Shown piece by piece: positions 21,627-48,242 of a DNA stretch of 64,000 bases. Both the position numbers and the translations under genes were made by a program. Positions within the stretch are counted from its first letter, which is position 1. Each line of letters opens with the position of its first letter. The notes beneath the pieces are model-generated. The model searched no databases and was not told the origin of the DNA. It saw only the letters and a program-made list of their open reading frames with translations. This DNA comes from Mesoterricola silvestris (lineage in GTDB: Bacteria; Acidobacteriota; Holophagae; Holophagales; Holophagaceae), in the NCBI RefSeq assembly GCF_030295405.1, contig NZ_AP027080.1, positions 186,001 to 250,000 on the forward strand, written 5' to 3'.

Positions 21627-21712
21627 TGCCGCCATTTTCCTGCCCCGGGCGAGCGGGCAGTGATCCCCTTGAGAACAAAGGGTGATGGCCTATTTCCTTG
21701 ATTCCATTCGGC

Positions 21713-28780: not shown

Positions 28781-28837
28781 TGGAGGACATCGAGGTGCCG
28801 GTCCATGCCGGCCGAACGTGCGTCCCCGGAGGGCAGG

Positions 28838-29623
28838 ATGACCCACCCCATCAAGACCGTAATCCTTGCCGGCGGGCTGGGCACGAGGCTTGCCGAGGAA
28901 ACGACCGTCAAGCCCAAGCCCATGGTGGAGATTGGCGGCCAGCCAATTCTTTGGCACATCATGAACATCTATGCCAGCCATGGCTTCTCGGAATTCCTCG
29001 TGGCCCTGGGCTACAAGGGGGATCTCATCAAGCAGTACTTCCTGGAATTCCATGCCATGAACTCCAATATCTCCCTGGACCTGGCCAAGGGGGAGACCCA
29101 CTTCCACGCGCCGACGGCCCCGCCCTGGAAGGTGCACCTGATCGATACGGGCGGCCAGACCATGACCGGCGGACGGATCCGCCGCATGAAGGCCCACCTG
29201 GGGGACGATCCCCTCTTCCTGGTCACCTACGGCGATGGCGTGGCCGATCTGGACCTGGGCCGCCTCCTGGCCTTCCACCGGAGCCACGGCCGGCTGGCCA
29301 CCGTCACGGCGGTGAGGCCTCCGGCCCGGTTCGGGGAGATCCGGCTCAAGGATGGGCAGGTCATGGGTTTCGCGGAAAAGCCCCAGGTGGGGGAGGGCTG
29401 GATCAACGGCGGCTTCTTCGTGCTGGACCGCCGGGTCCTGGACTACATCGACGGCGACGACACCATCTGGGAGCGCGAACCCATGGAGCGGCTGGTGGCC
29501 GAAGGGCAGCTCATGGCCTTCTGCCACGAGGGGTTCTGGCACCCCATGGACACCTTGAGGGAGCGCAACGTGCTGGAGTCCCTGTGGAACTCCGGGAAGG
29601 CCCCCTGGAAGATCTGGGACTGA
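28838..29623 (+). CDS. rfbF: Glucose-1-phosphate cytidylyltransferase
   Basis: The 261-residue protein begins TVILAGGLGTRLAEET followed by KPKPMVEIGGQPILWHIM, the sugar nucleotidyltransferase signature, and contains the RfbF-type TGGRIRRM, TYGDGVADLD and GWINGGFFV motifs. It makes CDP-glucose from glucose 1-phosphate and CTP, the entry point to CDP-deoxysugars. ATG 28838 is chosen because GGAGGG lies four bases before it; an upstream in-frame ATG at 28805 has no ribosome site. It is the first gene of the plus-strand sugar operon and its later partner rfbH is at 32064. Confidence 0.92.
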   Translation: MTHPIKTVILAGGLGTRLAEETTVKPKPMVEIGGQPILWHIMNIYASHGFSEFLVALGYKGDLIKQYFLEFHAMNSNISLDLAKGETHFHAPTAPPWKVHLIDTGGQTMTGGRIRRMKAHLGDDPLFLVTYGDGVADLDLGRLLAFHRSHGRLATVTAVRPPARFGEIRLKDGQVMGFAEKPQVGEGWINGGFFVLDRRVLDYIDGDDTIWEREPMERLVAEGQLMAFCHEGFWHPMDTLRERNVLESLWNSGKAPWKIWD

Positions 29624-29633
29624 AGGAGCAGCC

Positions 29634-32077: not shown

Positions 32078-33389
32078 ATCCCTCCGGGCCCAGATCCTTG
32101 AACTGACGCGGCAATACGCAGAAATTGCCCACGCGCCGAAGCCCTTCGTGCCCGGCGAGAGCCGGGTCCATTACTCCGGCCGGGTCTTCGACCAGGCCGA
32201 GCTCCTCAACCTGGTGGGGTCCTCCCTGGATTTCTGGCTCACCGCGGGGCCATATGCCACCCGTTTCGAGGAGGCCATGCGCGGCTTCTTCGGAAGCCGG
32301 GGCTTCCTCCTGGTCAATTCCGGATCCAGCGCCAATCTCCTCATGGTTTCCGCCCTCTGCGCGGAGGCCGCGGACAAGGCCCGGGAATCGGGGCCCGGCC
32401 GCCTCCTGCCCGGGGACGAGATCATCACCCCCGCCGTCACCTTCCCCACCACCCTGACCCCCATCCTCCAGAACCGCCTGGTGCCGGTCTTCGTGGACTG
32501 CGAGGTGGACACCTGCAACATCGACCCCGGGCTCGTGGAGGACGCCATCGGCCCGCGCACCCGGGCCATCCTCGCGCCGCATACGGTGGGCAACCCCTGC
32601 GACCTGGCCGCCCTCACGGACATCGCCCGGCGCCGCAACCTCTGGCTCCTGGAGGACGGCTGCGACGCCCTGGGGGCCACCTTCGAGGGACGCCTGGTGG
32701 GCACCTTCGGCGCCATGAGCAGCCTCAGCTTCTACCCCGCCCACCACATCACCATGGGCGAGGGCGGGGGCGTCTGCGTGAACGCCCCCGAACTCAAGCG
32801 GACCCTCCTCTCCCTCCGGGACTGGGGACGGGACTGCTGGTGCGACCCCGGCGCCAACAACACCTGCGGCCGCCGCTTCGACTGGCACATGGGCGAACTG
32901 CCCTATGGCTACGACCACAAGTACATCTATTCCAACCTGGGCTACAACCTCAAGGCCACGGACCTCCAGGCCGCCATCGGCCTGGCCCAGTTCGACAAGA
33001 TCCCCCGGTTCGTCGCCGCCCGGCGCCGCAACTTCCGGCTCCTCCTCCAGGGCCTGAAGCCCCTGGAGGACCGCCTCCTCCTGCCCCGGATCGACCCCCG
33101 CGCCGATCCGTCCCCCTTCGGCTTCCCCATCACCGTGCGCGAAGGCGTGGACCGGCGGGCCCTGGTGGGCCACCTGGAGGCGGCGAAGATCGAGACCCGC
33201 CTGGTCTTCGGGGGGAACATCCTGCGCCAACCGGGATTCCTGAACATCGACAAGCGGGTCGCGGGGAGCCTGGAGGGCTCCGACCGGATCATGCGGGACA
33301 CCTTCTTCGTGGGGGTGTACCCGGGCCTGGGGGAGGCGCAGATCGAGTACATCCTCGGGGTCATCCATGGTTTCTTCGCCCGGAACTAG
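32064..33389 (+). CDS. rfbH: CDP-6-deoxy-4-keto-glucose 3-dehydrase (E1), RfbH/AscC type
   Basis: The 441-residue PLP-fold protein has the diagnostic SFYPAHHITMGEGGG (residues ~222-236), where histidine replaces the PLP-binding lysine of DegT aminotransferases, so PLP-type chemistry serves C-3 deoxygenation via PMP. Cysteines in DCWC and NTCGRRF (around 253-266) match the [2Fe-2S] site of E1. LNIDKRV-type C-terminal motifs also fit. It removes the C-3 hydroxyl from CDP-4-keto-6-deoxyglucose together with a reductase (E3). No E3 and no recognisable CDP-glucose 4,6-dehydratase gene is in the window. AUG follows GGGAGTCCC and overlaps the ugd 3' end. Confidence 0.93.
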   Translation: MSNPESLRAQILELTRQYAEIAHAPKPFVPGESRVHYSGRVFDQAELLNLVGSSLDFWLTAGPYATRFEEAMRGFFGSRGFLLVNSGSSANLLMVSALCAEAADKARESGPGRLLPGDEIITPAVTFPTTLTPILQNRLVPVFVDCEVDTCNIDPGLVEDAIGPRTRAILAPHTVGNPCDLAALTDIARRRNLWLLEDGCDALGATFEGRLVGTFGAMSSLSFYPAHHITMGEGGGVCVNAPELKRTLLSLRDWGRDCWCDPGANNTCGRRFDWHMGELPYGYDHKYIYSNLGYNLKATDLQAAIGLAQFDKIPRFVAARRRNFRLLLQGLKPLEDRLLLPRIDPRADPSPFGFPITVREGVDRRALVGHLEAAKIETRLVFGGNILRQPGFLNIDKRVAGSLEGSDRIMRDTFFVGVYPGLGEAQIEYILGVIHGFFARN

Positions 33390-33404
33390 GCAAGGGAGGA
33401 CGGC

Positions 33405-34436
33405 GTGAACGTCATGAAGATCGGCGGCAGGGAAATCGGTCCGGGCCATCCCCCGCTCGTGATCGCGGAGATCGGCATCAACCACGAGGGAGACCTGGCC
33501 AAGGCCATGCGGATGGTGGACGATGCCCAGGCCGCGGGCTGCGAGTGCGCGAAGTTCCAGTGCCACGTCGTGGAAGACGAGATGGTGCCCAACAAGGTGA
33601 TCCCGGCCAACGCCAGGGAGAGCATCTGGGACATCATGGTCCGGTGCTCCCTTTCGGAGGAGGAGGAGTGGGCCCTGAAGGAGCACGTGGAAAAGCGCGG
33701 CCTCCTCTACCTCTCCACGCCCTTCTCGCGGGCCGCCGCCGTCCGCCTCGAACGCTTCGGCGTCCAGGCCTACAAGATCGGTTCGGGGGAATGCAACAAC
33801 TACCCCCTGGTGCGCCACATCGCCGCCTACGGGAAACCGGTGATCCTCAGCACGGGCATGAACGACCTGGATTCCATCCAGGGATCCGTGGATCTCCTGA
33901 GGGCCGCGGGCGTGCCCTTCTGCCTGATGCATTGCACGTCCATGTACCCGACGCCCTACGCCAAGGTCCGCCTCGGCGCCCTCGGGGACCTGGCGCGGCG
34001 GTTCCCGGACGCGGTCCTGGGGCTCAGCGACCACTCCATGGGCATCTACACCTGCCTGGCCTCCGTGGCCCTGGGCGCCTCGGTCCTGGAGAAGCACTTC
34101 ACCTCGGACAAGGCCTGGCCGGGACCGGACGTGCCCCTGTCCATCGATCCCGCGGAACTGGCCGAACTGGTCAAGGGTTCCCGGGCGGTCTTCGAGGCCC
34201 TGGGGGGGAGCAAGACGATCCTCCCGGAAGAGCAGCCCACCATCGATTTCGCGTACGCCTGCGTCGTCTCCCTGAGGGAGCTGGCCCCCGGCACCCGCCT
34301 GGGGCCGGAGGACATCTGGGTGAAGCGCCCGGGGACGGGCGAGATCCTGGCCGCGGAGTTCGAGGGGCTCCTGGGGCGGGAACTCAAGCGGGCCGTGCCC
34401 GCGGGCACGCAGCTGCGCTGGGAGGATCTCGCCTAG
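33405..34436 (+). CDS. neuB: NeuB-family nonulosonic acid synthase
   Basis: The 343-residue protein has a TIM-barrel NeuB domain (residues ~15-260) with VIAEIGINHEGD, STPFSRAA, YKIGSGECNN, STGMNDLDS and LGLSDHSMG, followed by a C-terminal SAF (antifreeze-like) domain (~285-343). It condenses phosphoenolpyruvate with an N-acetylmannosamine-type six-carbon sugar to a nine-carbon acid (Neu5Ac, or legionaminic/pseudaminic-type). The start is GTG 33405, five bases after GGGAGG. It is followed ten bases later by the NeuC-like gene. Which nonulosonic acid is made cannot be told here. Confidence 0.92.
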   Translation: MNVMKIGGREIGPGHPPLVIAEIGINHEGDLAKAMRMVDDAQAAGCECAKFQCHVVEDEMVPNKVIPANARESIWDIMVRCSLSEEEEWALKEHVEKRGLLYLSTPFSRAAAVRLERFGVQAYKIGSGECNNYPLVRHIAAYGKPVILSTGMNDLDSIQGSVDLLRAAGVPFCLMHCTSMYPTPYAKVRLGALGDLARRFPDAVLGLSDHSMGIYTCLASVALGASVLEKHFTSDKAWPGPDVPLSIDPAELAELVKGSRAVFEALGGSKTILPEEQPTIDFAYACVVSLRELAPGTRLGPEDIWVKRPGTGEILAAEFEGLLGRELKRAVPAGTQLRWEDLA

Positions 34437-34445
34437 GCGGCGGGG

Positions 34446-35633
34446 ATGCTTATGGAGCGCAGGAGGATCGCCGTCTTCACGGGCACGCGGGCCGAATATG
34501 GCCTGCTCTATCCCGTCCTGCGGGCCATCGACCGGGACCCGCGCCTGGACTACCGGCTCCTGGTGGGGGGCGCCCACCTTCAGGAAGCCTTCGGCGGCAC
34601 GGTTTCGGAGATCCTGGCCGACGGCCTCCAGGTGCACGGGACCGTCGATCTGCCGCCGGTGCAGGACACCCTGGCCGGCTCCACCCGGGCCCTGGGCCTG
34701 ACCATCGTGGGCCTGGGCGACCTGCTGGCCCGGGAGCGCCCGGACTTCGTCCTCGTGTACGGGGACCGCACGGAGAGCATGGCCGCCGTCCTGGCCGGAA
34801 CCCAGATGAACCTTCCCACCGCCCACATCGAAGGCGGCGATTACACCGAGGGCGGGGCCCTGGACGATTCCCTGCGCCATGCCATGACCAAGCTGGCCCA
34901 CGTCCACTTCGCCACCAACGCCCAGGCCCGGGACCGCATCCTGAAGCTCGGGGAGGAGCCCTGGCGGGTCTTCGACGTGGGACTGCCGGCCCTGGATCTC
35001 ATCCGGGAGGGGCGCTTCGCCGCCCCCGAGGCGGTCCTGGCCGATCTGGGGCTCGATGCGGAACGGCCGGTGGCGCTCTTCTGCCAGCACTCCGTCGCCA
35101 CGGAATTCGAGGCCGCCGTCCTCCAGGTGGAGCCGAGCCTGCGGGCCCTGGAGCGGCTCGCGGCCGAAGGGTGGCAGGTGATCATCACCTATCCGAACAA
35201 CGACGCCGGCGGGAGGGCCATCATCGAGCGCCTGGCGGCGCTCCAGGACCTGCCCGGGATCACCCTCACCCGGAGCCTGGGCCGCCACCGTTTCCACGGC
35301 CTCCTCAACGTCATCGGCCGGCTGGGCCGCGGCTGCCTCGCGGGGAATTCCTCTGCGGGCCTCAAGGAGACGCCCATCTTCGGTTGTCCGGCCGTCAACA
35401 TCGGATCCCGGCAGCAGGGGCGCATGCGGGCCGCGAACGTCCTGGACGTCCCCTACGAGGAGGAAGCCATCCTCCAGGCCATGCGCCGGTGCGTGGACGA
35501 TGCGGAGTTCCGGGCCCTGTGCCGGACCTGCTTCAACCCCTACGGGGAAGGCCAGGCCGGTCCCCGGATCGCGGACGTCCTCGCCACCCTCCCCATGGGC
35601 CAGGCCCTGGTGAGAAAGAAAATGACCTTCTGA
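34446..35633 (+). CDS. neuC: Hydrolysing UDP-N-acetylglucosamine 2-epimerase (NeuC/LegG-like)
   Basis: The 395-residue GT-B-fold protein begins with FTGTRAEYGLLYPVL, contains VYGDRTESMAAVLAG, the catalytic-region HIEGGDYTEGG and DDSLRHAMTKLAHVHF, and later AGNSSAGLKETP. This is the hydrolysing branch that releases ManNAc (or the diacetamido analogue) and UDP. Its product feeds the adjacent NeuB-like synthase. Two in-frame ATGs (34446 and 34452) are possible starts. The CMP-transferase (NeuA/LegF) needed next is not in the window. Confidence 0.92.
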   Translation: MLMERRRIAVFTGTRAEYGLLYPVLRAIDRDPRLDYRLLVGGAHLQEAFGGTVSEILADGLQVHGTVDLPPVQDTLAGSTRALGLTIVGLGDLLARERPDFVLVYGDRTESMAAVLAGTQMNLPTAHIEGGDYTEGGALDDSLRHAMTKLAHVHFATNAQARDRILKLGEEPWRVFDVGLPALDLIREGRFAAPEAVLADLGLDAERPVALFCQHSVATEFEAAVLQVEPSLRALERLAAEGWQVIITYPNNDAGGRAIIERLAALQDLPGITLTRSLGRHRFHGLLNVIGRLGRGCLAGNSSAGLKETPIFGCPAVNIGSRQQGRMRAANVLDVPYEEEAILQAMRRCVDDAEFRALCRTCFNPYGEGQAGPRIADVLATLPMGQALVRKKMTF

Positions 35634-35684
35634 CCCCCCGGCCGGGCTTCCCCCCGACGCCCGCACCCAGACGGAGAACGACCC

Positions 35685-36947
35685 ATGACCCAAGAGAAAG
35701 TTCCCATCCCCGCCGTGGTCCGGAAGAGCCTGGAGCTCTTCCCTCCCGTCCGGGCCGGGAGGAAGGTGCGGGCCGTGGCCTACCCCGCGGGGAAGCTCAC
35801 CCGCGCCATGGTGGACGAAGGGCTTTTCGGCGCCCTGGACCTGGTGGGCGTGGCCGACCGGGCACCCCAGGAATTCGGCGGCACCTACGGTGCCCTGCCC
35901 GTGGTCCCGGCGGAAGGAATCCCGGCCCTTGGGCCGGACGCGGTGTTGATCTGCTCCACCCGGTTTCATCTGAGCATCCATGCGGAACTCACCGCCCTGC
36001 TCGCCGGTTCGGGGATCGACGTGGTGGACCTCTGCCGGGACTTCCAGGTTCCCAGGTACCGGGATCTCGCCGGCCGGGCCGAACGCAAGGGGTTCGCCCT
36101 GGTGGACGAGGGCCCGGGCCTCCTCCGTCTGAGGGAACCCGGGAGCCCCGGCCGGTCCGTCCTGGCCCGGACCGAGCACTGGACCATCCTGGAGTGGACG
36201 TTCCGGCGCTTCGATGACTTCTTCCACGACATCCTGCCGGTCACCCTGCCTTCGGGGGAGCAGGTCCTGGACTTCTCCCGGCCCGGGTACCACACCTACC
36301 GCGCCTCGGGGGCCCGGCTCTTCACGCCTTCCGTCGTCCAGCCCGAGGGCCTTCTCTACCAATACCTGGACCTCGTCCACCCGGCGCCGGGGGAGGTGGT
36401 GCTGGACCTGGGCGCCTTCAACGGGGACTCGGCCTACCATTTCTCGAAGGCCGTGGGCGCAAACGGGCTCGTGGTGGCCGTGGAGGCGGATCCCGTCAAT
36501 TTCCAGGCCCTGGAACGGAATGTCCGGGAACTGGGCCTCGCGAACGTCCGCATGATCCAGGCAGCCGTCTGGTCCACGGACGGCATGGCCAGCTTCCAGT
36601 GCGATGGCGCGATGAGCTCCGGCCTCACCGACGGCTTCGATTTCGACCTGGAGGGGGGGAGCACCGCCCCCGGGCAGTCCGCCTCCGTAAGGACGATCCG
36701 CCTGGAGACCCTCCTCCGGGAACACCAGCTCGACCGGGTGGATGTCGTGAAGATCGACACCGAGGGGGCCGAGCTCGCGATCCTGGTATCCAGCATGCCG
36801 ACGCTTCGCCGGCTCCACCCGAGGATCATCCTCGAACCCCACGCCAATGATCATCCGGGATTGATCGGGGACATGCTCGGCGTCCTGGCCGAAGGCGGGT
36901 TCAAGGCGGAGTACCTCGAAACCGACAACCTGATCGTCGCCCGGTAG
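35685..36947 (+). CDS. FkbM-family methyltransferase with N-terminal Rossmann-like module
   Basis: Residues ~205-415 of 420 form an FkbM-type SAM methyltransferase: VVLDLGAFNGDSAYHFSKA near 240 is motif I, VVAVEADPVNF follows, and VDVVKIDTEGAELAIL is the family's hallmark. FkbM enzymes usually O-methylate sugars. Residues ~28-115 form a separate small alpha/beta module (KVRAVAYPAGKLTRAMV ... LVGVADRAP ... PDAVLICS) that resembles modules on the next three enzymes. The gene sits 51 bases after neuC behind GGAGAACGA and before a glycosyltransferase. Confidence 0.87.
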   Translation: MTQEKVPIPAVVRKSLELFPPVRAGRKVRAVAYPAGKLTRAMVDEGLFGALDLVGVADRAPQEFGGTYGALPVVPAEGIPALGPDAVLICSTRFHLSIHAELTALLAGSGIDVVDLCRDFQVPRYRDLAGRAERKGFALVDEGPGLLRLREPGSPGRSVLARTEHWTILEWTFRRFDDFFHDILPVTLPSGEQVLDFSRPGYHTYRASGARLFTPSVVQPEGLLYQYLDLVHPAPGEVVLDLGAFNGDSAYHFSKAVGANGLVVAVEADPVNFQALERNVRELGLANVRMIQAAVWSTDGMASFQCDGAMSSGLTDGFDFDLEGGSTAPGQSASVRTIRLETLLREHQLDRVDVVKIDTEGAELAILVSSMPTLRRLHPRIILEPHANDHPGLIGDMLGVLAEGGFKAEYLETDNLIVAR

Positions 36948-36952
36948 CCGCC

Positions 36953-38383
36953 ATGACCCTTCCCCTCACCATCGCGCTGACGACGTACAACCGGGCCCCG
37001 TGGCTGGGCAAGGCCATCCAGGGGATCCTGGACCAGACCTTCGAGGATTTCGAACTGCTGATCCTGGACCGGGGCAGCACCGACGCCACGCCGGAGGTGA
37101 TCCTGGGCTTCAAGGATCCCCGCATCCGCTACGTGCGGAACCCGCCCGGCACCTCCCGCGAGTTCAACGGGATGGCGACCAACGTCATCGGCCGGGGCGA
37201 GTACATCCTGATCGCCCACGACGACGATATCTTCCTTCCGGACCTGGCCCGGCGGCAGTTCGGGATGCTGGCCGCCCATCCGGGCATGACGGCGGTGGGC
37301 GCGAACATGCACCTCATGAACGAATCCGGGGAGGACGTGGGCACCACCCTGTACCCGGGGACGGAGGACCGCGTCTACGGCCCCGGGGAATACGTGCGGA
37401 ACGTCCTGGAGGACCGGATCTGGATCCTGGTGAGCGGGCTCATGTACCGGCGGCGCCTGATCCCCGCCGCGGCCGTCCAGGAGCTCTACTACGGCGTGGT
37501 CCGGAAGCGCAAGAGCAAGGAGACCCGGGACGCCACCTCCGAGATGAACCTCCTCACGTACATGAACCGCAAGGCGCCCATCGGTTTCCTGGGGGAGCCC
37601 CTGATCCGGTACCGGCAGCACTCCGGACAGGATTCCCGCACCTATGACGTCTTCCGGCCGATCATCGACACCGTCATCGGCCTCAAGGGCGCGGCCCGGC
37701 ACAACCGGTTGGGGCCGGAGACCCTGGGGATCCTGGAGGCCTTCCTCCAGCGCTACCGGCTCCAGGCCACCCTGGGCCAATGGCGGGACCGGAAACCCTC
37801 CCCGTCCACCCTGCGGAAGATCCGGAACGGGAAACCGAAGCTCGAGCAGCTCGCCGCGGATCTCCCCGCCCGCAATGCGCTCCTGCCGGCGGGGATCCTC
37901 ATGTCCCAGCTGGGGCTCTCCCCGGATCCCGCCCTCTGGAGCCGCGGCGCGGAGGAAGCCGGCGCGTTGGGGAACGTCGCGACCCGGGCCCTGATGGCCT
38001 GGATGGTTTCGCGGCAGGCGGGGCGCAACCTCTTCGGACCGTACCCGGGCCTCCGGAGGATCGCCATCTTCGGAAGCGTGTTCGTCGCGTCCCTCCTCAT
38101 CCTGGAGGCGAGGGAGCGGGGCCTCGACGTGGTGTGCTGCCTGGATTCGAACCCGTCCCGCCAGGGGAGCAGCCTCCTGGGGGTGCCGATCTTCCCGCTG
38201 GGATGGCTGGCGGAGAAGGGCCGGGGCGTTGATGGAATCGTCATCAGTTCCGAGAAGGATCACCTGAACCTCTTCCGGTCGATCCTCGCGGAGGCGGGCG
38301 GGGATGCCTCGAAGGTCGTGTCGTGGCTCGAAATGGTCCCCCGGATCGCCGGCGAAGCCCGGGCGGTGGGGAGCCCGGGATGA
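36953..38383 (+). CDS. GT2 glycosyltransferase with C-terminal Rossmann-like module
   Basis: Residues 1-~225 are a family 2 glycosyltransferase: IALTTYNRAPWLGKAIQ, LDRGSTDATPEVIL and HDDDIFLPD near residue 89 as the metal/nucleotide motif. A helical middle follows, and residues ~360-465 form a small alpha/beta module (RRIAIFGSVFVASLLILEA ... VVCCLDSNP ... LLGVPIFPL ... DGIVISS). This C-terminal module resembles those on the FkbM protein, the next methyltransferase and the radical SAM protein. It probably adds a residue to the glycan built by this locus. The stop overlaps the next start (ATGA). Confidence 0.85.
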   Translation: MTLPLTIALTTYNRAPWLGKAIQGILDQTFEDFELLILDRGSTDATPEVILGFKDPRIRYVRNPPGTSREFNGMATNVIGRGEYILIAHDDDIFLPDLARRQFGMLAAHPGMTAVGANMHLMNESGEDVGTTLYPGTEDRVYGPGEYVRNVLEDRIWILVSGLMYRRRLIPAAAVQELYYGVVRKRKSKETRDATSEMNLLTYMNRKAPIGFLGEPLIRYRQHSGQDSRTYDVFRPIIDTVIGLKGAARHNRLGPETLGILEAFLQRYRLQATLGQWRDRKPSPSTLRKIRNGKPKLEQLAADLPARNALLPAGILMSQLGLSPDPALWSRGAEEAGALGNVATRALMAWMVSRQAGRNLFGPYPGLRRIAIFGSVFVASLLILEARERGLDVVCCLDSNPSRQGSSLLGVPIFPLGWLAEKGRGVDGIVISSEKDHLNLFRSILAEAGGDASKVVSWLEMVPRIAGEARAVGSPG

Positions 38384-39579
38384 TCCCCGTCCGGGCCTGC
38401 CTCATCTGCGGAACGCCTCACCTGGATCTCGCCGCGGCGAGAATCGCCCCGTTCATCGCGGAACGCTGCGGCCTGGGAGCTCCGTTGCCCCCGGTGCGGG
38501 CGGCCAGGTGCCCTTCCTGCGATTTCGTGTTCTTCGACCACCGTTTCGACGAGGAGGAGGCCCGGAAGCTCTATGCCGGGTACCGGGACGCGTCCTACAA
38601 CCGCCAGCGGTTGCGCCACGAGCCGTACTATCACGTGCTGCGGGAACTGTTCGAGGAGGGACGCGAGGCGACCCGCAAGGCCCGGATCCAGGACCTGGCG
38701 AATCTCTTCGAGGGCATCTCCCGCCCCTTCCCGAAGGTCCTCGACTACGGGGGGGAACGGGACGGGTGGCTGGCCAAGGGCGTGTTTCCCCGGTCCAGCG
38801 TCACGTCCTACGATCTGTCCTTCGACGCCGCCCCCCCCGCACCCCGCAGCCAGGACCTGGTCCTCTGCAGCAACGTCCTGGAACACGTCTCCTTTCCCCT
38901 CGACCTGCTGGGGGCGCTGAAGGCCTGCGTCAAGCCCTCAGGCCTGATCTGCCTGGAGGTTCCCCTGGAGCACTGGCCCGGCCTGCGGGACTTCCATGCC
39001 CGCGGGGAGGCGCTCCTCCATGAACATGTGTCGTTCTACTCCCCGCGGTCCGTGTTCCGGCTCCTGGCGCGGGCCGGCCTGCGGCCCCTGGGACGGGGGA
39101 TCCTCCGCGGGGGTACGCTGGGGATCCTGGCGCGGCCTTCGCGCCTCGGCAGGTGGCCCCGGCTCCTGGACCTGTTCGCGCCCCGGGTGCCCGAGCCCCT
39201 GCCCAGCCTTTCCGCCCCCGGGGTGGACCCGATGATCAACGGCACGGTGGTCAGGCGCGTCAATGCCCTGGTGGACCAGTGGAACGCGGAAGGGCGCACC
39301 CTGGTGGTGGCGCCGGCGGGACGGTTCTCCCGGGGCCTGCTGGAGCACACGCGCCTGGGGGAGGCGAATATCCTGGGGTTCTGCGACCGCGATCCCCGGG
39401 CCGCGGGAACCGCGCTGGGCGGCATCCCGGTGCGCCCCTACGGGGAACTCGAGGCCCTGGGGCCCGATTTCATCCTCGTCGCCTCCCCCGAGCACGAGCC
39501 TGCCCTGTGCCAGGCGCTGTCGGGGCAGGCGGACCAAGGCCGGCCGGTGCTGCCCCTCTCCAAGCTCATCTGGCCCTGA
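38380..39579 (+). CDS. Nucleotide-sugar C-methyltransferase-like protein
   Basis: The 399-residue protein has an N-terminal zinc-type cysteine pair (CLICG near residue 6 and CPSC near 45), a central class I methyltransferase domain (VLDYGGERDGWL as a degenerate motif I near 122, LVLCSNVLEHV near 163) and a C-terminal alpha/beta module (~305-395: TLVVAPAGRFSRGLLE ... ILGFCDRDP ... PDFILVAS). That three-part order is the layout of sugar C-methyltransferases such as TylC3/NovU. A branched methyl sugar is thus a reasonable product. It starts at ATG 38380, overlapping the upstream stop, and its last 14 bases overlap the convergent radical SAM gene. Confidence 0.82.
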   Translation: MIPVRACLICGTPHLDLAAARIAPFIAERCGLGAPLPPVRAARCPSCDFVFFDHRFDEEEARKLYAGYRDASYNRQRLRHEPYYHVLRELFEEGREATRKARIQDLANLFEGISRPFPKVLDYGGERDGWLAKGVFPRSSVTSYDLSFDAAPPAPRSQDLVLCSNVLEHVSFPLDLLGALKACVKPSGLICLEVPLEHWPGLRDFHARGEALLHEHVSFYSPRSVFRLLARAGLRPLGRGILRGGTLGILARPSRLGRWPRLLDLFAPRVPEPLPSLSAPGVDPMINGTVVRRVNALVDQWNAEGRTLVVAPAGRFSRGLLEHTRLGEANILGFCDRDPRAAGTALGGIPVRPYGELEALGPDFILVASPEHEPALCQALSGQADQGRPVLPLSKLIWP

Positions 39580-40879
39580 CCCTGGGGGGCAGCAGGTCCA
39601 CGAACCCCTGTTCGCCGGCCTTCGAGGTCCCGGACAGTTCCCCCTGGGCGCCGCAGTGGCCACAGGTCCGGTAGTAGGGCGCCCCCATCCAGGACCGGAT
39701 GCTCCGCCGGAGCTCCGCCCGGGTTTCCGGGACGGCGAGGGTGACGTAGTCGGCGGGGTAATCGGCCACTTTGAGATTGTGGAAGGAATTGGCATAGTCG
39801 CAGGGATGGAGCTTGCCGTTCTTGATCTGGAGGTACCGCGGCGTGCAGGCCTGGGTGATTTCCGAAATGCGTTCCACGCTGAGGCCCTTGTCCTCCATCG
39901 TGGCCGGGATCATCCACTGGGGGATGGCGACCCCCACGGAGCAGAAGACGCCCGCGGACCGGACCCGCTCGACGTTCCGGTGGAACAGTTCCTTCTGCCT
40001 CGGTGTGATGGATTCCAGGTAGTTCGAGAAGGTGACGATGACCCGGGGATCCCGGAGCGAGCGCAATTGCTCGTCCCGGATCCTGCAGGTCCCGGAGGTC
40101 GGGATGGCGATCAGCCCGCAGTTCTCCTTGGCGAGGAGGGCCTCCACGATGGTGTTGATGTGGGGATGGAGGAAGGGCTCGCCCCCCATGACCGTGACGG
40201 AGCCGACGCTGTCCACCGCCCCGAAGAACAGGTCGATGTCCCGGAGGATCCCCTCCAGGGGAAAGTTGACGCGATCCTCCCGGGGATAGGCGTTCATGTA
40301 TGAACTGCAATACTTGCACCCGAGGCTGCAGACCTGGTTGATGACCAGGGTGATGCTCTGCATGGAAAGCGGTCCATCCTCCGGTACGGTCCCCCCCAGG
40401 GCGCGGTGATTGAGGACATTGCTGATGCGCGGGCAGTAGATGAACCTGCAGGTCAGGCTGCGGATGCAGGCCGTGCCGTCAACGCCGCTCTTCAGGCTGA
40501 CGGGGCATCCGGTGGCCATGTAGACCACATCCCCCAGCAGGTGGTCGTACCCGGCGGCCTCGATCCGACTGGCCAAGCCGCTCTGGATGATGAGGTTCCC
40601 GATGGCCAAAATGACCAGGGTCTCCCCGGGGACCTGGCCGCCCGTGAAGGGCTTGGAAACCTCGAAGTCCGGGAGATCGCAGATGTCGTCCGCGCGTTCG
40701 TCCCAGAACCGGGCCACGGCGATCCCGTGGCGCCGGAGCTGCCTTTCGATGGCCTTGCCCAGGAAACTCGCCCCCCAGATGATCACGTTCCCATAGGACC
40801 GGAGGTGCTGGATCAGGGGGCCCGGATCCACGGGGTCGCCCGAACGGGCCTTGGCATAGAAGTTCTGGATATCCATCAT
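39566..40879 (-). CDS. Radical SAM protein with N-terminal Rossmann-like module
   Basis: Residues ~30-125 of 437 form a small alpha/beta module (NVIIWGASFLGKAIERQL ... PGETLVILAIGN). The radical SAM core follows with the cluster motif CSLGCKYC (C184, C188, C191) and MGGEPFLHPH at ~231. Four further cysteines (125, 138, 144, 149) precede the core, and a C-terminal set (CTPRYL, HPCDY, TCGHCG) could bind an auxiliary SPASM-like cluster. Radical SAM enzymes in glycan loci perform dehydration, epimerisation or C-C chemistry on sugars; the reaction here is unknown. It is the last gene of the minus operon, 23 bases after the nucleotidyltransferase. Confidence 0.82.
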   Translation of the reverse strand: MMDIQNFYAKARSGDPVDPGPLIQHLRSYGNVIIWGASFLGKAIERQLRRHGIAVARFWDERADDICDLPDFEVSKPFTGGQVPGETLVILAIGNLIIQSGLASRIEAAGYDHLLGDVVYMATGCPVSLKSGVDGTACIRSLTCRFIYCPRISNVLNHRALGGTVPEDGPLSMQSITLVINQVCSLGCKYCSSYMNAYPREDRVNFPLEGILRDIDLFFGAVDSVGSVTVMGGEPFLHPHINTIVEALLAKENCGLIAIPTSGTCRIRDEQLRSLRDPRVIVTFSNYLESITPRQKELFHRNVERVRSAGVFCSVGVAIPQWMIPATMEDKGLSVERISEITQACTPRYLQIKNGKLHPCDYANSFHNLKVADYPADYVTLAVPETRAELRRSIRSWMGAPYYRTCGHCGAQGELSGTSKAGEQGFVDLLPPRVRAR

Positions 40880-40902
40880 GGGTCATCGCCTTCCGGGGTG
40901 GA

Positions 40903-41976
40903 TCATGCGTCCAACAGGTGGTCCTGGGCCGTTTCGAGGTTCTTGTGCTCGCCGATGTCCATCCAGTATTCCCGGATGGGGAAGCCCACCACGGGGCGCC
41001 CGGCGTCCAGGAGCCACTGGATGAGGTCGGTCATGTTGAAGCGTTCGCCCTTCTGGGGGATGAACGAATAGACCCGGGGTTCCAGGAGGTAGATGCCCGC
41101 GTTGACCATCAGGTTGATCTTCGGCTTCTCCCGGAGCCGGGTCAGGGCGGCGCCTTCGCAGTCCACGATGCCGAAGGGGACCTCGAATTCCTGCCGGGTG
41201 ATGGCCACCGTCATGTCGGCCCCGTGCTCCTGGTGGAAATCCTGCATCTTCAATACATCGAGATGGGTGATGACGTCGGCGTTGATGACGATGAAGGGGT
41301 GTTCCGGCGGTTCCAGGAGGCCCAGGGCCCCGCCGGTGCCCAGGGGGAGCTCCTCGTTGACGTAGTTGATCTCCACGCCGAAGGCCCGCCCGTCGCCGAA
41401 GTGGTCCATGATCTTTTCGGGTTTGTAGTGGGTGGCCACGTTCATGCGGGAGATCCCGGCCCGCTTGAGCTGCTCGACGATCCACTCCATGGCCGGCCGG
41501 CCCGCCACGGAAAGCATGGGCTTGGGGGTATCGTCCGTGAGGGGGCGCAGCCGGGTGCCGAGGCCCCCCGCCATGATCACCGCCCGCAACTCCTGTTGCT
41601 TGGTGGGCAGCAGATCGTTCATGGTGACGATATCGGCCACCCGGCCCTGGGGATCCAGGAGCGGGATCTGCCGGATGTGCCTTTCCTGCATGATTTCCAG
41701 GAGATGCGCCGAATCGGTGCCCACGGGGGCCGTGACGGCCTTGGGATTGGGCATGCGGTTCTTGATGGGCAGCAGGTCCAGGGCGAGGGATTCCAGGCTG
41801 AGCCCCGCCAGCAGGCCCCGGCGCACATCCCCGTCGGTGATCACCGCGAGGAGGCACCCGTTTTCCTGGGTGAGCAGAGCAACGCCCAGCCGGCCGCTCC
41901 GGTCGATGCATTCGACCAGGGACCGGATGGTGCAATCGGCTGGCACTTCAAGGGTGGAGATGACGCTGAGGTTCAT
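40903..41976 (-). CDS. Sugar-phosphate nucleotidyltransferase with paired CBS domains (PtmE-like)
   Basis: Residues 1-~125 form two CBS motifs (ending LAVITDGDVRRGLL near 43-56 and ADIVTMNDLL near 114-123). Residues ~130-357 are a nucleotidyltransferase: MAGGLGTRLRPLTDDTPKPML at 135-155, VINADVITHLD, VNAGIYLLEP and DIGEHKN. This CBS-transferase fusion is the architecture of PtmE, the glucosamine-1-phosphate guanylyltransferase of legionaminic acid synthesis, and of some mannose/heptose-1-P transferases. With NeuB- and NeuC-like genes nearby, a nonulosonic acid role is attractive, but the sugar and nucleotide are not fixed by the sequence. It is 78 bases downstream of the ThDP gene. Confidence 0.86.
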   Translation of the reverse strand: MNLSVISTLEVPADCTIRSLVECIDRSGRLGVALLTQENGCLLAVITDGDVRRGLLAGLSLESLALDLLPIKNRMPNPKAVTAPVGTDSAHLLEIMQERHIRQIPLLDPQGRVADIVTMNDLLPTKQQELRAVIMAGGLGTRLRPLTDDTPKPMLSVAGRPAMEWIVEQLKRAGISRMNVATHYKPEKIMDHFGDGRAFGVEINYVNEELPLGTGGALGLLEPPEHPFIVINADVITHLDVLKMQDFHQEHGADMTVAITRQEFEVPFGIVDCEGAALTRLREKPKINLMVNAGIYLLEPRVYSFIPQKGERFNMTDLIQWLLDAGRPVVGFPIREYWMDIGEHKNLETAQDHLLDA

Positions 41977-42054
41977 GGGCGCGCTCGTCTGGCGACATCG
42001 GACAGGTTGACAGGAAGCTTGAGGGGTATTTCCAGGGGTCGGGGGGCCCGGGCC

Positions 42055-43839
42055 TCAGGCGCCGCCCCGGAGCCCGATCATATTGGCCTGGATCTCCTCC
42101 CGGGGCAGGAAGGGGAACATGTCCTCCAGGGGGCGGCTCTCCATGGTGCCATCCGCCCGGCGGGCGGAACTGGCCTTGGGACTGATGGGCTGGTCCGGGG
42201 CCACGGGGACTTCGCAGAGGCGGGGCATGGGGCCCGCGAGGACGCGCTCGAGCTCGGCATCCAGGTCCGCGGCGGGATCGATCCGGTCGTAGGCGAGGCC
42301 ATAGGCTCCCGCCAGAAGCCGGAAATCCGGGTTGGCCACCCCGCTGCCCGCTTCGGCGCCCACGAAATGGCCCCCGAAGTAGGTGTTCTGGGTGGCGCGG
42401 ATGCTCGAATAGCCCTGGTTGTTCAGGACGAAGATGCACACGGGGAGCCGGTGGCTCCCCAGGGTGAGAAGCTCCTGGATGTTCCACTGGAAACTGCCAT
42501 CCCCCGTCACCAGGACCACCCGGTGGCCGGGCCGGGCCACGGCGGCCCCCACGGCCAGGGGCAGGTCCCACCCCATGGCGCCCCAGTTCCCGTTCTGCAG
42601 GGCCCGCTGCCCGCGGGTGATGCGGAAGGACTGGATGTAGCTCACCACATCCATCCCGTTCCCGGTGACGACGGTGTCCTTCCCGTCCATATGGTCCGAC
42701 AGGCGGTCCAGGAGCCGGTAGGTGTTCACGTGATCCGAGGGCGCCAGGTGCTCGGCTTCCAGGGTGGGGTAGCGGGCCTTCCATTGGGCGCAGGCCTCCA
42801 GCCACGGACGGGGAGGCTCATAGGCGTCCAGGGCCCGGCCCAGGGCCCGGAGGAAGTCCCCGGCATCGGCCTGGACGGCGAGGTCCGCGGCGATGGGCTG
42901 GTGGTGCAACTGGCCCGGATCGATGTCCACCAGGATCTTGCGGGAGCCCGGGCTGAAGCCCGCCACGTTGAAGCCGCTCTTGGCCACGCAGAGGCCGGAG
43001 CCGACGCTCAGGAGGAGATCGGCGTTCTGGAGGGTAAAATTGGCCCGCCTCTGGCCCAGTGGGCCAAAACAGCCCAGGTTCTGGGGATGGTCCTCCCAGA
43101 GGAGGTCCTTGGCCGTGTGGGTGGTGATGGCGGGAATGCGGGTGGCCGCGAGCAGGTCCAGCAGGGCGTCCCCGGCCCGGGCCCACCCCACGCCGTTGCC
43201 GGCCATGAGGACGGGGCGCCGGGAGGCCCGGATCCACGCGGCCGCGGTCCGCACGGCCTCCTCCAGGGCCGGGGCCGCTTCCGGGGCGGGGGCGAAGGGG
43301 GCCAGGGCGTCCTCGTCCACGAGGGCCCCCTGGACATCCAGGGGCAGATCGATGAGGACGGGCCCGGGCCGGCCCGAGGTGGCCAGGTACCAGGCCTTCT
43401 CCAGTTCGTACCGGATCCGGTCCGGTTCCCGCACCGTCACGGCGTACTTGGTGAGGTGTCCCGCCAGGCCCACCAGGTCCCCCTCCTGGGGGCCCTTCTG
43501 GCGCTGCAGCCCGTAGTCCGCCATGAGATCGCGCCTCACCTGCCCCGTGAAGACCAGCATGGGGACCGAGTCGACCCAGGCTCCCGCCGCGCCGCTGAGG
43601 GCGTTGAGGCCCCCCGGGCCCACCGTCACGAGGACGGCGCAGGGCCGGCGGTGGAGCTTGGCCCAGGCCTCGGCGGCCGCCGCGCAGGCCTGTTCGTGGT
43701 AGTTGCACCAGTACCGGAGCCCTTCCTGGCGGCCCACGGATTCCAGCAGGTGCATGATCCCGCCGCCGGAGACCAGGAAGATGTCCTCGATTCCCCGGGC
43801 CACCAGGAAGGCGGAAACGTAGTCGGAAACCTTGATCAT
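42055..43839 (-). CDS. ThDP-dependent acetolactate-synthase-like enzyme of sugar modification
   Basis: The 594-residue protein has the three-domain layout of pyruvate-type ThDP enzymes. The catalytic glutamate is E49 in NYHEQACAAAAEAWA, the central domain spans ~190-340, and the ThDP motif GDGSFQWN-...-NNQGY is at ~442-470. The C-terminus diverges from metabolic acetolactate synthases, and no small regulatory subunit gene is present. Its place between an NAD epimerase (ATGA overlap) and a sugar nucleotidyltransferase points to sugar biosynthesis. YerE-type enzymes of this class transfer an acetyl unit from pyruvate onto a CDP-keto-deoxysugar; that role is an inference. The start is ATG 43839. 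Confidence 0.85.
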   Translation of the reverse strand: MIKVSDYVSAFLVARGIEDIFLVSGGGIMHLLESVGRQEGLRYWCNYHEQACAAAAEAWAKLHRRPCAVLVTVGPGGLNALSGAAGAWVDSVPMLVFTGQVRRDLMADYGLQRQKGPQEGDLVGLAGHLTKYAVTVREPDRIRYELEKAWYLATSGRPGPVLIDLPLDVQGALVDEDALAPFAPAPEAAPALEEAVRTAAAWIRASRRPVLMAGNGVGWARAGDALLDLLAATRIPAITTHTAKDLLWEDHPQNLGCFGPLGQRRANFTLQNADLLLSVGSGLCVAKSGFNVAGFSPGSRKILVDIDPGQLHHQPIAADLAVQADAGDFLRALGRALDAYEPPRPWLEACAQWKARYPTLEAEHLAPSDHVNTYRLLDRLSDHMDGKDTVVTGNGMDVVSYIQSFRITRGQRALQNGNWGAMGWDLPLAVGAAVARPGHRVVLVTGDGSFQWNIQELLTLGSHRLPVCIFVLNNQGYSSIRATQNTYFGGHFVGAEAGSGVANPDFRLLAGAYGLAYDRIDPAADLDAELERVLAGPMPRLCEVPVAPDQPISPKASSARRADGTMESRPLEDMFPFLPREEIQANMIGLRGGA

Positions 43840-44885
43840 GGGGTGCCCCTTCGGGAATGGGTATGCCAGGCGGCGGTTCGCAGGATGGCCTCGTCCAGGC
43901 CGGTCCACGGTTCCAGGCCCAGCTCCGTGCGGGCCCGGTCGATGGCGGGGACATAGCAGGAGGGGGCCCGGCCTTCCTCGGGGCGCCGGCCCACCGTGAC
44001 CCCGAGGCCGGGGTGGAGAAGGTCCGCCACCCGCCGGGCCAGGTCCGCAATGGAAATGGGCTGGTCGCTCCCCACGTGCACGGGGCGGCAGGAAGGCCCC
44101 CGGAAATAGAGCGTCCAGAGCCAGGTGGCCAGGTCGGCCGCGTACAGGTAGGACCGGAGGGGCGTGCCGTCCTGGAGGATGCGGATGGGTTCGCCCCGGA
44201 GGGCGTCCCGGATGAAATTGCCGATGGCGAAATTGGCGTCCAGCTTCAGGCCGGGCCCCACGAACGCGAAACACCGGGCCAGGATGGCCTGGACGCCCTG
44301 TTCCCGGGCGAAGGCGGAGAACAGGAATTCCGTGGCGCGCTTGGCCTGGCCGTAGGCGGTCCCGGGATCCCCGGTGGCCGGGGCGAAGGGGCAGTCCTCG
44401 GGAAGGGGGCCGGAACCCTCGGGGGGCGGGCCGTACACCGCGCCCGAGCTCGTGAACAGGAGGCGCGCCGCGCCGCTGGCGGCCGCGAAATCCAGGACGC
44501 GGTTGGCCCCGTCGACCATGTGGCGGTACTGGACCAGGGGCGCCTCGGTGGCCACGGCCAGGTGGATCAGGCCGTGGAAGGCCCCCTCCGGCGGCCGGAA
44601 GGCTTCGAGGCTGCCGCCGTGCACCTGGATGGACGGCGAAGCCGCCAGGTGGGGATGGCGCTCGGCCCAGCCCCGGGGATCCCGGCAGAGAAGGACCAGC
44701 GTGCCCTTGAACCCGAGCCGCCGCTGGGCGTGGTGGAAGCTTTCCACCAGCCAGCTCCCGAAGAACCCGGTGGGTCCGGTGACAAAAATCCGTCCCCCCT
44801 GGAGGGAGGGCCACAGATCCTCGGTGCGGGCGAGGATGGGATCGAGGTCGGCTCCTGGCAAGGAATCGAAGGGGTTGACGCCCAT
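43836..44885 (-). CDS. NAD-dependent sugar epimerase/reductase (extended SDR)
   Basis: The 349-residue protein has a ~30-residue helical lead-in, the NAD motif VTGPTGFFGSWLVES at about 35-49, TSSGAVYG and the catalytic YGQAK, followed by AILARCFAFVGPG and a sugar-binding C-terminal part. The GFFG variant with the leading DLDPILARTEDLW helix marks a subgroup common in O-antigen loci. It may reduce or epimerise a keto sugar, possibly the product of the ThDP enzyme it overlaps. The start is ATG 44885; its ribosome site is weak. A near-consensus sigma-54 promoter lies about 80 bases upstream. Confidence 0.83.
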   Translation of the reverse strand: MGVNPFDSLPGADLDPILARTEDLWPSLQGGRIFVTGPTGFFGSWLVESFHHAQRRLGFKGTLVLLCRDPRGWAERHPHLAASPSIQVHGGSLEAFRPPEGAFHGLIHLAVATEAPLVQYRHMVDGANRVLDFAAASGAARLLFTSSGAVYGPPPEGSGPLPEDCPFAPATGDPGTAYGQAKRATEFLFSAFAREQGVQAILARCFAFVGPGLKLDANFAIGNFIRDALRGEPIRILQDGTPLRSYLYAADLATWLWTLYFRGPSCRPVHVGSDQPISIADLARRVADLLHPGLGVTVGRRPEEGRAPSCYVPAIDRARTELGLEPWTGLDEAILRTAAWHTHSRRGTP

Positions 44886-44965
44886 GGGGCAGAACCTGGG
44901 TGGGGGGATTGGGGGGGGGGACAGGGTTTCCGGGCCGGCACGGATCCAGGCGGAACCCCCACCGA

Positions 44966-44981
44966 AGCAAGATGCCTGCCA
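44966..44981 (-). promoter_or_regulatory. Sigma-54 (-24/-12) promoter of the minus-strand glycan operon
   Basis: The minus strand reads TGGCAGGCATCTTGCT, matching TGGCACG-N4-TTGCW at every conserved position but one (G for C6). GG and GC are exactly ten bases apart. The predicted start is near 44956, leaving a ~70-base leader before the epimerase ATG. It lies back to back with a second such promoter 30 bases away. Confidence 0.7.
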
Positions 44982-45011
44982 CATGCCCGGGGCCGGGTCA
45001 TAACTGCTAAC

Positions 45012-45027
45012 TGGACTGCTTCTTGCA
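45012..45027 (+). promoter_or_regulatory. Sigma-54 (-24/-12) promoter of the glycosyltransferase pair
   Basis: TGGACTGCTTCTTGCA keeps TGG, G7 and TTGCA with the exact ten-base GG-GC spacing of the sigma-54 consensus; three bases of the CAC part differ. The predicted start is near 45038, giving a 25-base leader that contains GGAAGGAAA before ATG 45063. A TATACT at 45032-45037 has no good -35 partner at 16-18 bases. The 30 bases between the two divergent promoters include an imperfect dyad (ATGCCCGG/CCGGGTCAT). Confidence 0.62.
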
Positions 45028-45062
45028 GACGTATACTTCCAGGACAGCTGCGGAAGGAAACC

Positions 45063-46292
45063 ATGACGCCCAGGCTCAGTGTGGTGATGCCGACCTTCAA
45101 CCGGACCCGGTGGCTCGGGGAGGCCATGGACCGGATCCTGGAGCCCGGCCTGGACCTGGAACTGGTGGTCCTGGACAACGGCTCCTCGGACGGGACCTGG
45201 GCGTGCCTCCAGCGCCGGGCCGCGGAGGACCCCCGGGTCCGCCCCGTGCGCTGGGAATCCAACAACCCCGCGGAGGCCTATCCCGCCCTGCTGGAAATGG
45301 CCCGGGGGGAGTACGTGAACCTCTTCGCCGATGACGACTGGCCGCTCCCGGGGGGCCTGGCCCGGAAGATGGCCCTCCTGGACGCCCACCCGGAGACCGC
45401 CATGGTCTTCAGCACCGCCCGGTGCATGAACGAACGGGGCGAGGACCTGGGGGAGGCCGATTGGACCCGCATCGCCGACGAGGATTTCACCGGCCGGTCC
45501 GACCTCTTCGACCTCCTGTTCGCCCGGAACTACGTGCCGATGCCGGCCGCCCTGTTCCGGCGCGCCCTGGCGCCCGCGGCCATCCTGCGCGACCCCTTCT
45601 TCGGGCCTTCGCACGACTGGCCCTTCTGGCTGGACCTGGCCCGGCGCGCCCCCATCGCCTTCCTGCGGGAACCCACCGTGAGCCTCCGGCTTCACGGGAG
45701 CCAGGTCAGTTCGGTCATCGGCTTCGGCCAGGGGTTCTTCCTCGAAGTGAATTTCAATGTCTGGCGGCGCTGGATGCTGGAGACCTCGCCGCCCTTCGTG
45801 CCCTCCTCCGGCGCCTGGAAGGGGATGTGCCTGAACCTCGCCGGCCTGCTGAGGGCCACCCACGGCCAGGACCTGGAGAAGGTCCAGGCCGGGCTCCGCC
45901 GCCTCTATGCCCTCCGGGACGAACAGGAGGCGATGCTCGCCGGACGCCGCGACGAGGAGGAGGCCGGGTTCCCCGAGGCCTTCCTGCTGGGAACCCGGCG
46001 CGAGGACTGGCGGGGGATCGTCACGGCCTACGGGAACGCCTTCACCCCGGAGGACCCGGTCCTGCTCGCCATCCTCCCGGAACCGCAGGAGGATCCGGAA
46101 GCCCTGGCAGGGGCGGTGCGGGCCGCGGACGGCGGGCCGGCGGTGCGCGTCCTGGGGGCGGACCAGGTCCTGGGCGCCCTCCGGGCCTTTCCCCACATCC
46201 AGTGGGTGGACGCGGATTCCGGTTCCACCCTCCAGGGGGCCAAGGGCCGCCGTTTGGCCGAGGCCATGCGTCAGCTGGGAGGCCAGGCATGA
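45063..46292 (+). CDS. GT2 glycosyltransferase with C-terminal accessory domain
   Basis: Residues 1-~230 of 409 are a family 2 glycosyltransferase: SVVMPTFNRTRWLGEAMD, LDNGSSDGTW and FADDDWPLPGG near residue 90, with the acceptor-side PSHDWPFWLDLARR later. From ~315 a separate domain begins (EDWRGIVTAYGNAFTPEDPVLLAIL ... VLGALRAFPHIQWVDADSG) that resembles the tail of the next protein. Start ATG 45063 follows GGAAGGAAA. It shares an ATGA overlap with the next gene and is probably expressed from the sigma-54-type promoter 36 bases upstream. Confidence 0.85.
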   Translation: MTPRLSVVMPTFNRTRWLGEAMDRILEPGLDLELVVLDNGSSDGTWACLQRRAAEDPRVRPVRWESNNPAEAYPALLEMARGEYVNLFADDDWPLPGGLARKMALLDAHPETAMVFSTARCMNERGEDLGEADWTRIADEDFTGRSDLFDLLFARNYVPMPAALFRRALAPAAILRDPFFGPSHDWPFWLDLARRAPIAFLREPTVSLRLHGSQVSSVIGFGQGFFLEVNFNVWRRWMLETSPPFVPSSGAWKGMCLNLAGLLRATHGQDLEKVQAGLRRLYALRDEQEAMLAGRRDEEEAGFPEAFLLGTRREDWRGIVTAYGNAFTPEDPVLLAILPEPQEDPEALAGAVRAADGGPAVRVLGADQVLGALRAFPHIQWVDADSGSTLQGAKGRRLAEAMRQLGGQA

Positions 46293-47308
46293 TCCCCAAG
46301 CTCCTGCACCTCATCTGGGTCGGCGACGAGACGCGGCGACCGGCCCGCTGCATCCAGTCCTGGATCGATCACCACCCCGGCTGGACGGTGCGCGTCTGGG
46401 GCAACCGGGACCTGGCGGAACGGGCCTGGTACAACGGGGACCACATGAAGGCGATGGCCGCGCGGGAATGGAACGGCGTGGCCGACATGATGCGCTGGGA
46501 GATCCTCTACGACCAGGGGGGGGTGCTCGTGGATGCCGACAGCTTCTGTGTCGGCACCCTTCCCGACTGGATGCTGGACTGCGAGGCCTTCGCCTGCTGG
46601 GAGAACGAGCTGGTGAGGCCTGGGCTGGTGGCGGCCGGCTACTTCGGGACGGTCCCGGGGAATCCCTTCGTGGCCCAGCTCATCGAAGGCATCCACCGGA
46701 AGTCCACGGTGGTTGACCGGATGGCCTGGGAGACCGTGGGGCCCCAGCACCTGACGGACACCTGGAAACAGGCGGGCTACGGCAACCTGACGGTCCTGCC
46801 CAGCCATTTCTTCATTCCGAGGCACTTCACCGGCGCGGAGTATTCCGGGGGGGGCCCCGTCTACGCGCGGCAGGAGTGGGGCAGCACCCTGGGGCGCTAC
46901 GATCAGCTGGCCTCGGGGGCGCTGACCGAAGGCGTCAAGGCCCAGGCCTTCCTGTACGAACCGCGCTGGGAGGACCCCGAATGGGTGGAGGTGCTCCTGG
47001 GGTACCTGGAGGCCTTCGCGCCGGAGGACCCCGTCACCCTGGTGCTGGTCCTGGATCCCGCGGCGCCCGGCCAGGTGTCCCTGGCGGATGCCGAGGCCGC
47101 CGTGCTGGATCTCGTGGGGCGCACCGGCCGGACCCGGTTCCCGGACGTGGCCATCCTCGACCACCCGGAGGAGCTGGGGGACTTCCTCCGCCCCTTCCCC
47201 CTGGCATGCTGGGTGCCCCCCGGCCGGGGCGCGACCTCCGGCTTCCGCGGTCCCCTGGGGGTCCGTTTCGCGGAGGCCCGGACCCGTCTGGTCAGTCCGG
47301 ACGTTTGA
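46289..47308 (+). CDS. GT32-type glycosyltransferase (OCH1-like) with C-terminal accessory domain
   Basis: The 339-residue protein starts with IPKLLHLIWVGDE and contains ADMMRWEILYDQGGVLVDAD near residues 68-87, the GT32 nucleotide-sugar/DxD motif, then WENELVRPG and HFFIPRHF. GT32 enzymes transfer hexoses to capsule, lipid or glycan acceptors. The last ~110 residues (WVEVLLGYLEAFAPEDPV ... LGDFLRPFPLACWV) form a domain like that ending the previous protein, although the catalytic folds differ. The 3' end overlaps the convergent activator gene by 17 bases. Confidence 0.83.
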   Translation: MIPKLLHLIWVGDETRRPARCIQSWIDHHPGWTVRVWGNRDLAERAWYNGDHMKAMAAREWNGVADMMRWEILYDQGGVLVDADSFCVGTLPDWMLDCEAFACWENELVRPGLVAAGYFGTVPGNPFVAQLIEGIHRKSTVVDRMAWETVGPQHLTDTWKQAGYGNLTVLPSHFFIPRHFTGAEYSGGGPVYARQEWGSTLGRYDQLASGALTEGVKAQAFLYEPRWEDPEWVEVLLGYLEAFAPEDPVTLVLVLDPAAPGQVSLADAEAAVLDLVGRTGRTRFPDVAILDHPEELGDFLRPFPLACWVPPGRGATSGFRGPLGVRFAEARTRLVSPDV

Positions 47309-48242
47309 GGTTCACGCCCAGGCGGCGGGCGGTTGCGTACAGGGAGGGCCGGGCCATGCCCAGGACCTTGGCCGCCTGGGCAGCGCGGTAGCCGCAGGCG
47401 GCCAGGGTCTCCTCCAGGAGGGTCCGCTGGAAGGCCCGGGTGGCCTCGGTCCATCCACCGGAAGGGGGGGCGCCCGTTTCGGCGGGAACCAGGTGCCGGG
47501 GGCCCAGGGGTTCCCCTCCGGAATGGAGGAGGCCCTGTTCCAGGACGTGGAGGAACTGGCGCAGGTTGCCCGGCCAGCTTCGGCTGGCCAGGGCTTCGGT
47601 TAGGCCGCGCTCCAGGGCCGGTGCCGGCCGCCCCAGGTTCTGGGCCGCCCGGATGACCAGCCGCGGCACCAGGTAGGGGAATTCGTGGCGGCGCTGTTCC
47701 AGGGGAGGGACCCGGATGACGGTGCCCTGGAGCCGGAACAGCAGGTCCTCCCGGAAGGCTCCCGCGCGGGCCATGGGCTCCAGGGGGCGGTTGGTGGCGG
47801 CCGCGAACCGCACGTCGATGCGCGCGCCCCGGTCGCTGCCCACCCGCGGAACCTCGCGCTCCTGCAGGACGCGGAGCAGCATGCACTGGACCCGGGGCGT
47901 GAGGTCGCCCACCTCGTCCAGGAACAGGGTGCCGCCCTCCGCGGAGGCCACCGCGCCCCGGCGTTCCCGCACCGCGCCGGTGAAGGCCCCGCGGACGTGC
48001 CCGAACAGTTCCGATTCCAGGGTGCCCTCCGCGAGGGCGGCGCAGTTCACGGCCACCAGGGGCCCCGGGCGCCGGGAGCGGCGGTGCAGTTCCCGCACCA
48101 CCAGCTCCTTTCCGCACCCCGTGGGCCCCCGGACCAGGACCGTCAGGCCCGAGGGGGCCACCAGGTCCAGTTCGCGCAGGAGGGCCCCCATGGGCTCGGA
48201 CCCATCGGTCAGGAGCTCGGGTTCGGGGGGCGCGTTCCTCAC
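47292..48242 (-). CDS. Sigma-54-dependent transcriptional activator without sensor domain
   Basis: The 316-residue protein is almost only AAA+ plus DNA-binding domain: Walker A GPTGCGKE (39-46), GAFTGA (85-90) that contacts sigma-54, Walker B FLDE (107-110), arginine-finger-type REDLLFRL, and a Fis-type helix-turn-helix at ~270-316 (AQAAKVLGMARPSLYATARR). Only ~20 residues precede the ATPase, so there is no receiver, GAF or PAS domain; activity would be set by expression level or a partner, as in PspF. It likely serves the sigma-54-type promoters of the glycan locus next door. The start is a GTG, 18 bases downstream of the small membrane protein gene. Confidence 0.9.
   Translation of the reverse strand: MRNAPPEPELLTDGSEPMGALLRELDLVAPSGLTVLVRGPTGCGKELVVRELHRRSRRPGPLVAVNCAALAEGTLESELFGHVRGAFTGAVRERRGAVASAEGGTLFLDEVGDLTPRVQCMLLRVLQEREVPRVGSDRGARIDVRFAAATNRPLEPMARAGAFREDLLFRLQGTVIRVPPLEQRRHEFPYLVPRLVIRAAQNLGRPAPALERGLTEALASRSWPGNLRQFLHVLEQGLLHSGGEPLGPRHLVPAETGAPPSGGWTEATRAFQRTLLEETLAACGYRAAQAAKVLGMARPSLYATARRLGVNLKRPD

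Follow-up and report, generated by a model that had tools for sequence, protein, structure and literature searches.

Does the short gap between two divergent runs of glycan genes in Mesoterricola silvestris carry a sigma-54 promoter for each run, and is the sigma-54 activator gene next to the locus their partner? The window analyzed here, a stretch of 64,000 nucleotides, contains a 177-bp gap between the genes EpiX and GT2c (44886-45062), and this gap holds two divergent sigma-54-type elements. The features concerned, in window coordinates, are as follows.

39566-40879, minus strand: radical SAM protein (PF04055), end of the leftward run
40903-41976, minus strand: sugar-phosphate nucleotidyltransferase with a CBS domain (PF00483, PF00571)
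42055-43839, minus strand: thiamine-diphosphate enzyme, acetolactate synthase-like (PF02775/PF02776/PF00205), with a 4-base overlap with EpiX
43836-44885, minus strand: EpiX, NAD-dependent epimerase/dehydratase (PF01370), first leftward gene, start at 44885
44966-44981, minus strand: sigma-54 -24/-12 element TGGCAGGCATCTTGCT, predicted promoter of the leftward operon
44982-45011: spacer separating both -24 elements, 30 bases in the window's genome (G000) and 9 in a relative in the same genus (G001)
45012-45027, plus strand: sigma-54 -24/-12 element TGGACTGCTTCTTGCA, predicted promoter of the rightward operon
45063-46292, plus strand: GT2c, family 2 glycosyltransferase (PF00535), first rightward gene
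46289-47308, plus strand: GTsug, glycosyltransferase with a DXD region (PF04488), with a 4-base overlap with GT2c
47292-48242, minus strand: sigma-54 enhancer-binding protein without a sensory domain (PF00158, PF02954), GAFTGA in the translation

Both runs look like operons, since EpiX and the thiamine-diphosphate enzyme gene overlap by 4 bases, as do GT2c and GTsug. They lie in an island (28805-47308) of sugar-nucleotide enzymes (NeuB and NeuC types) and glycosyltransferases, where none of the genes examined was recognized as a flippase, polymerase or initiating transferase. A contig scan for EpiX returned distant relatives only, with acidobacterial MAGs among the nearest named. The original prediction held that back-to-back sigma-54 promoters drive both transcripts, and re-reading the coordinates showed its minus- and plus-strand sequences and their 30-base separation to be exact, with the GG-N10-GC spacing and TTGC at -12 present in both elements alike. 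From these elements, transcription would start near 44954 on the minus strand and near 45038 on the plus strand. No sigma-70-type promoter was found in the 177-bp gap. The genome contains one rpoN gene and 19 matches to enhancer-binding proteins.

Scoring with a weight matrix had been proposed as a check on this prediction, and with an approximate consensus matrix the two elements took ranks 1 and 2 of ~128,000 window positions. A second matrix, derived from 28 sigma-54 sites of Salmonella listed in PMC3844500, agreed for one element only: the minus site scored 16.35, which is rank 1 and inside the range of the known sites (14.3-20.9), whereas the plus site, at 9.07, fell below this range because it has TGGAC in place of TGGCA. 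The plus site of G001 scored 3.9 on the same matrix. The epimerase-side (minus) promoter is the stronger of the two predicted promoters.

Motif occurrences in the 5.0-Mb genome were counted by pattern searches together with scans of genome stretches. The general motif, TGGNNNGNNNNTTGCW, has 43 occurrences genome-wide, the majority within genes, versus 56 for a reversed control, and a single match is weak evidence. Two places in the genome match the strict pattern of the divergent pair, versus one for its control; the sequence at the second place is near-identical in most family genomes and is probably coding. In simulated gaps, a divergent GG-N8-TTGC pair arose in 0.3% of cases with G000-like composition and in 0.16% with G001-like composition. 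The divergent pair, unlike the single motif, exceeds chance. That the general motif is not enriched over its control would suit a reading in which neither element is more than a chance match and other promoters serve the operons, but the pairing, position, rank and conservation of the elements make this highly improbable.

Several other sigma-54-like sites were noted in the course of these scans. Two strong sites, TGGCAGGGGTCTTGCT (at L174:7362) and TGGAACGCCCTTTGCA (at L153:1145), lie shortly upstream of genes for proteins of ~164 and ~129 residues, respectively, both small, rich in Ala, Ser and Gly, and with no family assigned; TGGCAGGGGTCTTGCT shows 2 mismatches to the EpiX site over 16 positions. 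The top Salmonella-matrix score among the scanned stretches of the genome, 20.5, belongs to TGGCATGGTCTTTGCT (at L151:1231). Within the window, TGGCAAGAATAATGCC (21615-21631) can be read on either strand as a sigma-54-like site and precedes a gene for a LysM/M23 peptidase, at 21851.

Of 93 class genomes, only G000 and G001 have GT2c, and because G001 is the sole relative that has the gene pair, all conservation reported here rests on two sequences. The divergent arrangement of EpiX and GT2c is the same in G001, with protein identities to G000 of 51-61% (EpiX 61%, GT2c about 50%); in the upstream regions examined from other family members with EpiX homologs, a divergent GT2c was seen only in G001. 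The G001 gap, of 143 bases, does not align as a whole with that of G000. A MAFFT global alignment of the gap mis-paired the plus element and was rejected, and an ungapped 16-mer comparison was therefore used. In this comparison only 5 of 162 16-mers of the G000 gap reached 12/16 identity in G001, and all five were the two elements and their one-base shifts. The counterparts, GGGCAGGAATATTGCA for the minus element and TGGACCGAATCTTGCC for the plus element, match in place and strand, and shuffling the G001 gap 3000 times never gave an equally good divergent pair. The minus element lies 80 bases from the EpiX start in G000 and 65 in G001. Loss of GG/GC in close relatives, named beforehand as a sign against the promoters, was looked for, and both motifs are kept in the one relative available. 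Conservation in G001 is thus good evidence, from two sequences only, that the promoters are real.

The low Salmonella-matrix score of the plus site, and an inverted repeat (GCAAGATGC/GCTTCTTGC) that is contained in the two elements, could also be accommodated if the minus element alone were a sigma-54 promoter, and the plus element a chance match or a repeat arm for another regulator. We think this quite unlikely: the two elements are equally conserved (12/16), the distance of the plus element to the GT2c start is held (35 bases in G000, 37 in G001), and the GG-N10-GC spacing is exact for both elements in both genomes. Matrix rank and conservation in G001 support predicted back-to-back promoters for both transcripts, and both elements are very probably genuine sigma-54 promoters.

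The identity of the activator is a separate matter. As originally observed, an activator gene does border the locus, where it is convergent with GTsug, and its product looks competent, with an AAA+ domain, a Fis-type HTH and GAFTGA. A dedicated partnership of this protein with the promoters is not supported, as G001 keeps both promoters without the gene and 16 other family genomes have the gene without the EpiX/GT2c pair; the protein may nevertheless act here. In G001, GTsug runs straight into the gene u131, with no space for an activator gene, and the closest match in that genome has 42% identity and is not a close ortholog. Orthologs (53-68% identity) are present in the 16 other family genomes, none of which has GT2c, and on sufficiently long contigs they are flanked on one side by u131/PEGA/TPR/HEAT genes and, in many cases, on the other by mutL. 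The protein is ~316 residues long in the window and ~320 in the forms seen within the window's genus; orthologs elsewhere in the family are frequently the end of a ~1000-residue protein (e.g., L088:5917-8991) whose first 680 residues have no Pfam match. In one genome (G004), the activator ortholog borders a different glycan set with a sigma-54-like site before a glycosyltransferase gene (L085:11230), which is a weak hint in favor of the neighbor. Since the gene is conserved beside an unrelated HEAT/TPR/PEGA block and mutL without the gene pair, its adjacency to the locus would most simply be positional. The adjacent activator is therefore probably not a dedicated partner of the promoter pair, and that it is the dedicated activator of both promoters we consider unlikely. 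The synteny of the activator block and mutL is conserved family-wide, and so the glycan genes (28.8-47.3 kb) occupy a variable slot. Between the HEAT/TPR/PEGA/u131/activator block and mutL, relatives have different glycan genes, genes of other kinds or no genes at all.

A single activator site between the promoters, serving both, had been suggested from their close spacing; this was rejected because the 9 bases of G001 leave no room for it, and such sites are usually found ~70-150 bp upstream (PMC3844500). A listing of inverted repeats identified no activator site, and none of the listed repeats is common to G000 and G001. A shared activator site may lie elsewhere. The two spacers differ by 21 bases, or two helical turns; with one such case, this may be due to chance. 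Given the size of sigma-54 footprints, closed complexes at both promoters would almost be in contact in G000 and would overlap in G001. Because closed polymerases would touch across 30 bases or overlap across 9, the activator might open one promoter at a time, so that the pair would act as a switch, alternating or mutually exclusive, in which the helical phase is retained, an idea we regard as speculative and improbable.

We favor instead two divergent sigma-54 promoters that jointly switch sugar synthesis and transfer through an enhancer-binding protein, and on the sequence evidence we consider this likely. Sigma-54 RNA polymerase would wait in closed form at both promoters until an enhancer-binding protein, on receiving a signal, opens both of them. 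The minus promoter would then express EpiX, the thiamine-diphosphate enzyme, the nucleotidyltransferase and the radical SAM protein, by which the activated sugar would be made, and the plus promoter GT2c and GTsug, by which it would be transferred, so that synthesis and transfer would start together. Both promoters are presumably transcribed and fire together, and the activator may be another of the genome's enhancer-binding proteins, rather than (only) the neighbor. For an acidobacterial family that has received little study, the locus is a well-supported candidate target of sigma-54, one in which the making and transfer of one surface sugar would be tied to a single switch. It also illustrates that a sigma-54 promoter and an adjoining activator gene are not necessarily partners, and its unusually short inter-promoter gap offers a testable geometry for sigma-54 activation.

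Sigma-54 control of sugar loci had been called unusual, whereas published surveys point the other way. Regulation of exopolysaccharide, lipopolysaccharide and flagellar genes by sigma-54 is presented as a common theme (PMC3162934), seven exopolysaccharide/biofilm operons are under sigma-54 in Desulfovibrio vulgaris (PMC4641369), and glycosyltransferases and UDP-GlcNAc 2-epimerase are among the enriched sigma-54 groups elsewhere (PMC12316311). In such systems, as here, sigma-54 promoters precede surface-sugar genes, although the gene set differs, and the portions of PMC3162934 and PMC4641369 covered contained no acidobacterial case of this control. Helicobacter pylori and Campylobacter jejuni have RpoN-dependent flagellin glycosylation enzymes (PMC3930126), and likewise the sugar enzymes here are under predicted sigma-54 control, with flagellin genes in the genome and NeuB-/NeuC-type genes in the window. 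No flagellar genes were recognized among the window genes examined, and none of the three flagellin genes had a match to a loose sigma-54 pattern in its upstream region.

Divergent arrangements are also known. The orp1/orp2 operons of D. vulgaris are likewise divergent, each with its own sigma-54 promoter, and are expressed simultaneously through an enhancer-binding protein (PMC3897727). In that system the activator, DVU2106, has been demonstrated; its palindromic sites are at -131 and -88, with IHF sites lying between (PMC3897727), whereas here 30 (or, in G001, 9) bases separate the -24 elements, no comparable palindromic sites were found, and the activator gene is not conserved with the promoter pair as in orp-type linkage. 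The Salmonella hycA/hypA region has two opposite-strand sigma-54 sites facing away from each other, as here, judging from the positions in PMC3844500, but these serve formate hydrogenlyase genes and are ~113 bases apart. In D. vulgaris, type III secretion genes also form divergent sigma-54 operons (PMC4641369). Because sigma-54 control of surface glycans and divergent sigma-54 operons are both already documented, the control exerted by the divergent sigma-54 glycan promoters of this locus, although very probably real, is of an ordinary kind.
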